Assembly: GCA_025998875.1 (NCBI GenBank)
Contig: AP024675.1
Span: 2,019,549 to 2,083,548, forward strand
Direction: 5' to 3'
DNA: 64,000 nucleotides
Source of the DNA: Bacteroidota bacterium
Lineage (GTDB): Bacteria > Bacteroidota > Rhodothermia > JANXDC01
In this document: piece after piece, positions 42,803 to 46,038 of the stretch
Layout of the letters: every line of letters begins with the position of its first letter
Numbering within the stretch: the stretch's first letter is position 1
Position numbers and translations under genes: made by a program
Notes under the pieces: generated by a model
What the model saw: only the letters and a program-made list of their open reading frames with translations
The model's database searches: none
What the model was told of the DNA's origin: nothing

Positions 42803-42833
42803 CCTGGCTTCGGAACCAGGCCACGGCGGAGAT

Positions 42834-42863
42834 TTGCTTTTCTGTATCGATGCCGTATATTGC
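42834..42863 (+). promoter_or_regulatory. Candidate promoter for the parA gene
   Basis: TTG (42834-42836), a 19-base spacer and TATATTGC (42856-42863) fit the Bacteroidota layout with two -7 mismatches. It also reads as TTGCTT-N16-TATATT in sigma-70 style. The start near 42870 lies 20 bases before ATG 42890 and argues against the in-frame TTG at 42860. Confidence 0.45.
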
Positions 42864-42889: not shown

Positions 42890-43702
42890 ATGGCTCGCAT
42901 CGCCCTCATCAACCAAAAAGGCGGGGTGGGCAAAACCACCACGACTTTCAACCTCGGTGCGGCCCTGGCGCGACGTGGGTTCCGGGTTTTGCTTGTGGAT
43001 CTGGACCCGCAGGCGCACCTGACCTACCATGCCGGCATCGCCGCCCACGAGCTGGAGCTGACCCTGCTGGATGTGCTCACCGGCGAGGCCACGCTCTCGG
43101 AGGTGGTCTGCCTGCGCAATGAGCAACTGCACCTGGTGCCTTCCAACCTGGGCCTTTCCCGGGCGCAGAAGGTGCTCACCGAACCCGGCTCGGAGTTCCT
43201 CCTTCGAGAGGCACTTGAGGGACACGACGGATACGATTTCGTGCTCATGGACTGTCCGCCTCAGCTGGGGATTCTGAGCATCAACGCGCTCGTGGCCGCC
43301 CGGCACGTGCTGGTGCCCGTCTATCCGGAGTTTCTCTCGCTGGCCGGTCTGTCCCAGCTGCTGCAAACCGTGGAGATCGTAACCCGACGGCTCAACCCCC
43401 GTCTGGAGCTGATGGGCGTGCTGATCACCAACTTCGATCAGCGCAAAAATCTGCACCATGAGGCCGCCGGAAGCCTGCGGGAACGCTTCCCGGAGTGGGT
43501 CTTCCAGACCGTCATCCGCACAAACGTCGCCCTGGCCGAGGCGCCCAGCTACGGACAGAGCATTTTCGAATACGCTCCCACTTCCCTGGGCGCCCAGGAT
43601 TACGAAGCCCTCGCCGGGGAGCTGCTCTTGCGCCTGCAAAGCAGAGAGGTTCGCCATGATCCGAAGCCGCTCGGCACCCCGTCTGGCCGTCAATCCCCTT
43701 GA
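42890..43702 (+). CDS. ParA/Soj-family partition-type ATPase
   Basis: Predicted 270-residue ATPase that would form dimers on DNA when bound to ATP. The deviant Walker A is INQKGGVGKTTTTFNLGAALARRG (residues 7-30), with LLVDLDPQAHLTYHAG and Walker B-type FVLMDCPPQLGILSINAL, then IRTNVALAEAPSYGQSIFEYAP.SLGAQDYEALAGEL near the end, as in chromosomal Soj. It lacks the N-terminal HTH of plasmid type Ia ParA. No ParB (Spo0J) gene or parS site was recognised nearby. Instead its 3' end overlaps, by 47 bases, a small ribbon-helix-helix gene. That layout resembles type Ib plasmid partition pairs such as ParF-ParG. Confidence 0.88.
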   Translation: MARIALINQKGGVGKTTTTFNLGAALARRGFRVLLVDLDPQAHLTYHAGIAAHELELTLLDVLTGEATLSEVVCLRNEQLHLVPSNLGLSRAQKVLTEPGSEFLLREALEGHDGYDFVLMDCPPQLGILSINALVAARHVLVPVYPEFLSLAGLSQLLQTVEIVTRRLNPRLELMGVLITNFDQRKNLHHEAAGSLRERFPEWVFQTVIRTNVALAEAPSYGQSIFEYAPTSLGAQDYEALAGELLLRLQSREVRHDPKPLGTPSGRQSP

Positions 43703-44027
43703 TTGGACGGAGCGCTATCGCCGGATGGCCGAAACCGCGCTCCCCACGACGGTGGCCGAGCCCCCTGCGGCCCCGAGGGGGAAACATATGGGCAGCAACC
43801 CGCTGGACTGGATCGGGTCTGGAGGGGGCGCCCCTCCCATAGAGGAGCTATTGCCGGAACGCCGCTCCGCGGGGCGGCATCCGGACTGGGTGCGTCGTAC
43901 CTATCGGCTGCCTGTGGATCTGGCCGACGCCGTACAGCGCTACGCCCAGCAGCATCGCCTCGGGGTCAGCGAGCTCGTCACCCAGGCCTTGCGCGATTAC
44001 CTGTCGCGACGGAATCGAAACCCGTAG
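43656..44027 (+). CDS. Small ribbon-helix-helix protein with two NPLDW motifs, likely ParA partner
   Basis: Predicted 123-residue protein. The C-terminal about 42 residues form a ribbon-helix-helix pattern (RRTYRLPVDLADAVQRYAQQH, then GVSELVTQALRDYLSRR), usual for small DNA-binding dimers. The N-terminal 80 residues look disordered, with Pro, Ala and Gly. NPLDW occurs twice, at residues 13-17 and 48-52. The two copies use different codons at four of five positions. The N-terminus (MIRSRSAPRL) is arginine-rich, like peptides that stimulate ParA ATPases. ATG 43656 follows AGAGAGG and lies inside parA. No family is known to me; the partner role is inference from overlap and the RHH fold. Confidence 0.75.
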   Translation: MIRSRSAPRLAVNPLDWTERYRRMAETALPTTVAEPPAAPRGKHMGSNPLDWIGSGGGAPPIEELLPERRSAGRHPDWVRRTYRLPVDLADAVQRYAQQHRLGVSELVTQALRDYLSRRNRNP

Positions 44028-44145
44028 CATACCTTTTCTTCCCCCCCTCTGCGGGCTCGACCGCTCAGCACGGGCCGTATAAAGGCCCACACGTTCTGGC
44101 TTTTTTTTTGCTCTTTGTTGGCGGGTAAAATGGGGCGCCCGGAGT

Positions 44146-46038
44146 ATGGAACTATTCCGGCCCGATATGGGCTCCTTCTGGGTAAAGCGTCGTCGGTCTG
44201 CTCCTGAGCCGGATCCGCCTCCGCCGGATCGGACCTGGCTGGAGCGGCTCGAGCAAGCCGAGGAGGGAGAGGAGATTCTGCTGCCGGAGGGGGTGATCGA
44301 GCTTCCGGAGGTGCTCCGGCGCACGGCGGGGCTCAAGCTGCGCGGGCTCGGGGTGGATCGCACCATCCTGCGCGGCCTCGGCACGGAGGCCGTTTTGCTC
44401 TTTGGCGGAGGGGATTTCAGGCTCCAGGACCTCACCGTGGAGTATGCCGGAAAAGAGGATGCCGATGTGATCCGGCTCGAGGGAGGCAGGCTCGAGCTGG
44501 AACGGGTGCGCGTTCGCGGTGGACTGCGGCTGGGGGTCGAAGAGCGGGGGGGATGCGGGCTTGTGCTCTCTGCAGAGGCCCATCTGGTGGGCAAGGACGT
44601 CGAGCTCGGACCCAACGATGGAAGCGGACTTGAGCTCCGCCAGAAGGCGATGGCGGACCTGCGTACCCTTCGGGTGCATCAGAACCGACGGGGTGGGCTT
44701 TCTCTGCTGGAGGACAGCCAGGCTCGGATCGAAGGCCTCCAGGCCGAGGAAAACGGTCAGGCAGGGTTGAGCATCCGGGATCAGGCCCGCGTAGAGGTGT
44801 TCGATAGCCTCTGCCGCCGAAACGGATATGCCGGGATGCTCTGGCAGGGGACCAGTTCGGGTCAGGTGCGCAACTGCACCCTGACCCAGAACGAGCGTTA
44901 TGGGATCGTGGTTATGGACCAGAGCGCGGTCGAGATCACGGACAGCGAGATCTCCCACAACCGCGCTTCCGGTATGCTGATCTCCGGCCGGGCCGCCCCC
45001 GTGGTGCGGGGCAATCGGTTCGAGCACAACGGGAAAAACGGCCTCGCCGTGGCCCGGCAGGCCACCCCGGCCTGCATCTCGGGAAACCGGTTTGCGAGCA
45101 ACGGCACCCACGGCCTGCTCTGTCTGGAACAGGCTTCGGTGCACGCTCAGGAAAACGAGTTCCGTGAAAACGGATCCTCCGGGCTCTGCGCAGCCGATGA
45201 GGCCCGACTGGTATCGGAGAAAAACCACATCGGCCAGCATCCCCGAGAGGGGGTTCTGCTCATGGGCAAGGTGCAGGCCACGTTTCGGGATACGCAGATC
45301 GAGGAGGCCGGCCGATATGGCCTCTGGGCCGGGGGAAAGGCTACCGTCCAGATACTGCGAGGAGAGATCCGTCGCGCCCGGGCCGTGGGCCTGATGCTCA
45401 CCCAGGGGGCGCGGGCTTTTTTAGAAGCGATCACGGTGCAGGAGAACGCCTCCGCGGGCCTGTGGCTCGAAGGGGAGGCCTATCTGGAGGCCCGTCACGT
45501 GCTCACGGCGCGCAACGGTGGGCCCGGTTGCCTGGTCCGGGGCACGGCCCATCTGCTCGGGGAACACATCTCCGGGGTGGAAAACGCGCAGAACGGCTTG
45601 CTCCTGCTTGAGGGCACACAGGCTGTGGTGCGGGAAAGCCTCTTGGAGCGCAACGGGTTGAGCGGAATCGCCTTGTACGGAACAGCCCGCCTGGAGCTGA
45701 GGCGCAGTCGACTGGCCGCAAACCGTCACCATGGTCTTGTGGCGACCGAGCAGAGCGCCCTCCAGCTGCGGGAGGTGCTCTGTGAGGGGAACGTCCAGAC
45801 GGGGATCTATCTCACCGGACAGAGCACCGGGGAGGTCTCCGGATGCGCATGCCGGGGCAATCGGGATGGCATCTGGGTGGATTCGACCTCTTCGGTGCAC
45901 GTGCAGAGCAACCGCTGTGAGGCCAACCGACGCTTCAACCTGCGCGATCGACGCCGTATCGCACGCGGAATGCGCTGGTTTTGGCTGCTGCCCGCCGTGC
46001 TGAGCGTGGCCGCGCTCTTGCGCTGGCTTCTGGGTTGA
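44146..46038 (+). CDS. Tail-anchored right-handed beta-helix protein
   Basis: Predicted 630-residue protein. About 24 turns of a beta-helix run from residue 45 to 600, with a period near 23 residues and recurring patterns such as NGKNGLAVARQATPACISGNRF, as in the pectate-lyase/NosD superfamily. There is no signal peptide: the N-terminus MELFRPDMGSFWVKRRRSAPEPD is charged. The C-terminus has a basic flank (NLRDRRRIARGMR) and one hydrophobic segment (about 610-630, WFWLLPAVLSVAALLRWLLG), so the helix should face the cytoplasm as a tail-anchored protein. No catalytic residues stand out. ATG 44146 has only GGAG one base away, so the start is uncertain; the next in-frame ATG is 44167. It lies 118 bases after the RHH gene. 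Confidence 0.8.
   Translation: MELFRPDMGSFWVKRRRSAPEPDPPPPDRTWLERLEQAEEGEEILLPEGVIELPEVLRRTAGLKLRGLGVDRTILRGLGTEAVLLFGGGDFRLQDLTVEYAGKEDADVIRLEGGRLELERVRVRGGLRLGVEERGGCGLVLSAEAHLVGKDVELGPNDGSGLELRQKAMADLRTLRVHQNRRGGLSLLEDSQARIEGLQAEENGQAGLSIRDQARVEVFDSLCRRNGYAGMLWQGTSSGQVRNCTLTQNERYGIVVMDQSAVEITDSEISHNRASGMLISGRAAPVVRGNRFEHNGKNGLAVARQATPACISGNRFASNGTHGLLCLEQASVHAQENEFRENGSSGLCAADEARLVSEKNHIGQHPREGVLLMGKVQATFRDTQIEEAGRYGLWAGGKATVQILRGEIRRARAVGLMLTQGARAFLEAITVQENASAGLWLEGEAYLEARHVLTARNGGPGCLVRGTAHLLGEHISGVENAQNGLLLLEGTQAVVRESLLERNGLSGIALYGTARLELRRSRLAANRHHGLVATEQSALQLREVLCEGNVQTGIYLTGQSTGEVSGCACRGNRDGIWVDSTSSVHVQSNRCEANRRFNLRDRRRIARGMRWFWLLPAVLSVAALLRWLLG

Follow-up and report, generated by a model that had tools for sequence, protein, structure and literature searches.

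The ParA ATPase gene and the small ribbon–helix–helix (RHH) gene that overlaps it in the stretch of DNA analysed here (64,000 nucleotides, referred to as the window) form a real, conserved module. We read this module, at about an even chance, as a partition pair of the plasmid kind (type Ib-like), by which plasmids distribute their copies to daughter cells, that resides in the chromosome close to the replication terminus and acts, most likely, on terminus DNA. The computed basis is the architecture of the pair, its conserved pairing, an N-terminal tag common to the RHH partners, the placement of the ParA outside the clade of ParB-partnered ParAs and nearness to dif in two lineages.

The source genome (G000) is a single 2.35-Mb contig, and the locus is chromosomal, flanked by aroF–glmS and a VPS10-like gene. 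The positions of three genes described in an earlier note on this DNA are correct, as are the 47-base overlap of parA with the RHH gene and the 118-base gap that separates the latter from a gene for a β-helix protein. The same order, overlap and gap are repeated in a congener, G001, and the arrangement is not due to chance. The features, numbered from the first letter of the window, are as follows.

42833..42862, plus strand: putative parA promoter, TTTG-N19-TATATTG, a block conserved in the otherwise diverged intergenic region of G001.
42890..43702, plus strand: parA, encoding a ParA ATPase of 270 residues, Soj-like but of the RHH-partnered type, with Ala214 at the position of the DNA-binding Arg of ParB-type ParAs.
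43656..44027, plus strand: gene for the RHH partner of 123 residues, its N-terminal half disordered and its RHH domain at about residues 78–121.
43692..43706, plus strand: first NPLDW motif, residues 13–17, following the basic tail MIRSRSxPRLA and unchanged in the congener.
43797..43811, plus strand: second NPLDW(IG) motif, residues 48–52; the congener has DPLSWIG here, and remoter partners have FDFI or GLDWIG.
44146..46038, plus strand: gene for a right-handed β-helix protein of 630 residues, without a signal peptide and with a C-terminal membrane anchor at about residues 611–629; a genus-specific neighbour.

The type of the putative promoter is presumed by us, by analogy to Bacteroidota promoters.

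The window ParA matches the Pfam family AAA_31 (3e-52), carries the sequence NQKGGVGKTT with a deviant Walker A motif, KGGVGKTT, at residues 10–17, and lacks an N-terminal helix–turn–helix (HTH). Comparison with solved structures gave Soj of Thermus thermophilus and ParA of M. xanthus as the top matches. The gene had been described as Soj-like and without an adjacent parB, and this is borne out: the sole ParB_N match of the genome, at 1,795,647, lies beside another ParA, so that the window ParA is a true ParB orphan. The canonical parAB locus (G000:C1:1,795,647-1,796,861; L173) is outside the window. Its distances of about 0.9 Mb to dnaA and 0.34 Mb to dif are unusual for chromosomal parAB. 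A parS-like site, TGTTCCACGTGAAACA, is found at 902,084, 17 kb from dnaA.

In a tree of ParA sequences, seven ParB-partnered ParAs form a clade (100/100) and the window ParA falls outside it, grouping (93/83) with the ParA of a plasmid-like contig, G042, and not with the ParAs of the family Balneolaceae. As it is nearer to the former than to the latter, the tree suggests that the chromosomal pair was acquired twice, in this genus and in the Balneolaceae; descent of both chromosomal pairs from one ancestor was considered and is unsupported by this grouping. An arginine of Soj binds non-specific DNA, and at its position Ala is found in 31 of 32 aligned RHH-type sequences of the class and in all four plasmid sequences, Arg being present in the canonical ParA of the genome. 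The ParA pocket that receives the N-terminal tail of ParB has been mapped (Schnabel et al. 2025; PMC12462528). Five of its six positions are hydrophobic in the window ParA (L126, I128, I131, I163 and L168) and the sixth is Lys (K94 for V116); since the pocket is mostly conserved, it is plausible, as far as sequence can tell, that the RHH tail works on ParA as the tail of ParB does. The pair thus shares with Soj–Spo0J ParABS a Soj-like ATPase and a mostly conserved pocket for an N-terminal peptide of the partner; it differs in that the partner is an RHH protein rather than a ParB CTPase, in the absence of an adjacent parS and in the position of its ParA outside the ParB-partnered clade.

In the small protein itself, the match to RHH_1 (E 0.008) is under the Pfam cut-off. 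A model of its C-terminal part (pLDDT 94–97) matches the RHH structures of StnY, CopG and Arc, and the small partner has, as modelled, an RHH fold. Both of the NPLDW motifs picked out in the earlier note are present; only the first is invariant in G001, the second reading DPLSW there. The two align with N-terminal tags of other ParA-linked RHH proteins: the Balneolaceae partners bear KKSLGHNPLAY...DFI, small partners on plasmid and viral contigs bear tags such as GGLGSLL, GGLDSLI, LGNDPL or NPLF, and that of G042 bears GLGSDPF...GLDWIGG. Judged by this alignment, NPLDW is the genus version of a conserved N-terminal tag (LGxNPL...DFI / GLDWIG) in ParA-linked RHH proteins. A tblastn search of plasmids with the RHH protein gave no match because the RHH partners diverge too fast, and the connection came instead through the neighbours of ParA genes.

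The proposal that ParA and a small RHH protein form a conserved pair with the architecture of a partition system is supported. Searching 245 genomes of the class Rhodothermia with a profile of these RHH partners gave strong matches (E < 1e-11) in 54 of them, and all 54 lie directly beside a second, non-canonical (orphan) ParA; when 394 genomes sampled evenly across the phylum were searched, the Rhodothermia alone gave strong matches. In the Balneolaceae (e.g. Gracilimonas, Balneola), a second, orphan ParA with 47–51% identity is present, and the small RHH gene follows it. At 15 of 28 inspected loci (L031, L033, L035-L038, L040, L041, L043, L044, L046-L048, L050, L051) recC directly follows the pair, with recB after it where the locus was read further.

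The closest described counterparts are the type Ib systems (ParF–ParG of TP228; δ–ω of pSM19035), in which a small ParA without an N-terminal HTH likewise has a small RHH protein encoded directly after it, one whose N-terminal tail is flexible. The present pair differs from them in being chromosomal and not plasmid-borne, in that an iteron centromere was not found and in that its ParA is much nearer to Soj (E 3e-57) than to ParF (1e-11). The tail of a type Ib partner stimulates the ParA ATPase; here such stimulation is predicted from the basic and hydrophobic tail and the mostly conserved pocket. Relatives of the ParA with small partners are also found on mobile DNA, both plasmid and viral: Bacteroides p5482, Adhaeribacter plasmids, the G042 contig and IMG/VR contigs. 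Their ParAs are 43–52% identical, and the small product encoded downstream bears a short N-terminal tag. The G042 cassette has a replication-type gene beside it and repeats upstream, whereas the pair described here is fixed near the chromosome terminus. On the plasmid-like G042 contig (G042:C164; L178 5250-5430) five TTTACAAGT-type repeats stand upstream of parA–rhh, with the replication-type gene downstream, and these repeats are a likely centromere for such partition pairs.

A serious rival to our reading, although we consider it rather unlikely, is that the pair is a domesticated remnant of a plasmid or phage–plasmid partition system. It would persist as an autoregulated chromosomal operon or as an anti-plasmid (incompatibility) device, would take no part in positioning the chromosome, and would lie near dif because the region tolerates insertions. 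The relatives on plasmids and viral contigs, the grouping of the ParA with that of G042 and the lack of iterons at the chromosomal loci are all in keeping with such an origin. It is harder to reconcile with the long conservation of the pair, in 54 genomes of the class and in a congener whose RHH and β-helix proteins have diverged by about 50%, and with base composition: the GC and GC3 of the pair are those of the neighbouring genes, so that it is not a recently arrived island.

The location of the pair, discussed below, is together with its plasmid and viral relatives what is new here beyond the earlier account. In G000, the GC skew minimum and dnaA place the origin at about 0.885 Mb. The cumulative skew reaches its maximum at about 2.134 Mb, close to a dif-like 28-mer (2,133,822); the locus, at 2.062 Mb, is 71 kb from this site. 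The corresponding coordinates on contig C12 of G001 are 104,847 for the dif-like site and 68–71 kb for the locus. A genome-wide pattern search of 40 pair-bearing genomes detected dif-like sites, which are computational calls, in 39. The exception, G059, has no dif match and its skew peak is about 55 kb from the pair; in G016, from the Balneolaceae, dif is at the skew peak, 60 kb away from the pair. Pair and dif share a contig in 33 of the 39 genomes and are on different contigs in 6, and the distance between them in the 33 has a median of 71 kb (range 12–257 kb), or 4.2% of the half-chromosome, the maximum being 11.5%. The pair lies on opposite sides of dif in the two lineages: taking the orientation of dif as reference, it is upstream in this genus and, for the most part, downstream in the Balneolaceae. 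The gene glmS, next to the pair in this genus, served as a control. It is not linked to dif in the Balneolaceae: of 31 genomes only 6 have it on the contig that carries dif, and in none of them is the distance below 200 kb.

Because the genomes are related, these data amount to about two independent dif-proximal placements, each a few per cent likely if placement were uniform. Only two independent lineages are near dif, and terminus regions can gather acquired genes for unrelated reasons. Nearness to dif is nevertheless retained while distances and neighbours vary, which argues against a mere remnant, and its occurrence in two lineages leads us to propose that the pair may help to place the terminus end of the chromosome.

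An RHH protein is also tied to the terminus region in the MatP–matS system of enterobacteria. Here no matS-like repeated motif was found, a k-mer and palindrome comparison giving no convincing motif enriched around the terminus; MatP is not known to come with a ParA partner. An 11-mer, GAAAGCGCTCC, has six copies within 27 kb of dif in G000 (G000:C1 2,107,511-2,150,482) and none in 360 kb of sampled non-terminus sequence. It is scattered in G001 and was rejected as a terminus-clustered word, its distribution in G000 being possibly due to chance. Upstream of parA, neither this locus nor those of the Balneolaceae contain centromere-like direct repeats. This result weighs against our reading, as do the lack of a convincing terminus-enriched motif and the Lys in the ParA pocket. 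An operator role was considered for TTGTAACA, which precedes many parA genes of the Balneolaceae, and was set aside, as it is a single site that could be a promoter element.

The β-helix protein is most likely an independent neighbour of the pair or a genus-level addition to it. It matches Beta_helix (2e-57) and NosD (4e-36) in Pfam and contains a single strong hydrophobic stretch, residues 612–630, which follows an R/K-rich sequence; on inspection, residues 1–40 are unlike a signal peptide. The earlier description of a β-helix without a signal peptide and with a C-terminal anchor is thereby confirmed. The accompanying analogy with a bactofilin-like scaffold is not. In the bactofilin–PadC–ParABS system of Myxococcus a β-helix protein is similarly found near a ParA system, but the protein here is a 630-residue right-handed Beta_helix/NosD protein with a membrane tail, in which Pfam and NCBIfam searches detected no bactofilin domain and only Beta_helix, NosD and parallel β-helix families. 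A single-sequence model of low confidence (pLDDT 59) gave no significant fold match.

Identity to the congener is 86% for ParA, 53% for the RHH protein and 49% for the β-helix protein. Synteny in G001 extends around the trio to aroF, glmS, the VPS10-like gene and an M28 peptidase, and because the whole region is syntenic, adjacency of the three genes tells little about a functional trio. The earlier note had made its trio depend on the genes being neighbours in related genomes, and since they are so in G001 the proposal is not refuted in those terms. The β-helix gene is nevertheless missing at nearly all ParA–RHH loci: it is confined to the two genomes of its own genus, absent from the other 243 of the 245 class genomes and absent from the remaining 52 strong ParA–RHH pairs of the class. 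With its flanks in G001 equally syntenic, a place for it as a third component is not supported. Among 84,980 species genomes, a search with few and strict patterns gave 69 matches, none of them a relative.

We think it slightly better than an even prospect that the β-helix gene is an independent neighbour, for example encoding a cytosolic, membrane-anchored binding or carbohydrate-type protein from its own promoter, which is compatible with our reading of the pair. The 118-base gap contains a conserved T-rich block, the closest homologues in the class are β-helices set in different contexts, for example fused to a Ser/Thr kinase, and profile matches in the PDB are to alginate epimerases and a phage fibre; on the other side, orientation is shared and the spacing to the RHH gene is exactly kept in both genomes. 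The kinase, cytosolic and fused to a right-handed β-helix, is near the top among the class homologues (G011:C53; L175 2109-4877). The tail-anchored β-helix could alternatively be a genus-specific membrane tether, for which adjacency is the sole support.

Some orphan ParAs are known to have proteins as cargo (PMC9178275), and a further alternative, which we regard as improbable, is that this ParA positions a protein, as in McdAB and PpfA–TlpT, and not DNA; in this genus the β-helix protein would then be the cargo or a membrane scaffold. The identical adjacency, order and 118-base gap in both genomes of the genus would fit, as would loss of the DNA-binding Arg of Soj, which leaves room for another matrix. 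The absence of the β-helix from 243 other genomes of the class and the retention of a DNA-binding RHH fold by the partner speak against it, and regional synteny makes the adjacency weigh little.

Returning to partition of terminus DNA, an RHH dimer would bind DNA through its C-terminal domains, and its basic, hydrophobic N-terminal tails would enter the pocket of the ParA dimer that takes the ParB tail in ParABS, triggering ATP hydrolysis. The ensuing ParA cycle would hold or move the RHH-bound DNA, the cargo being most likely chromosomal DNA of the terminus region. With such a cargo, positioning or separating the terminus would fall to this pair, and the origin to the ordinary ParABS. A broader proposal, which we hold to be unlikely, is of a ParA-driven terminus system for which plasmid-type pairs were recruited at least twice in the Rhodothermia, complementing the ParABS of the origin, with a β-helix tether added in one genus.

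The cargos known for ParA systems are plasmids, chromosome origins and proteins (PMC9178275, PMC10241942), and our literature search found no report of one linked to the terminus. The conserved N-terminal tag provides a handle by which non-ParB partners of orphan ParAs may be recognised. If our reading is true, a machine for plasmid segregation has been domesticated to serve the terminus end of the chromosome, in the Balneolaceae and independently in this genus, and the case can be tested.
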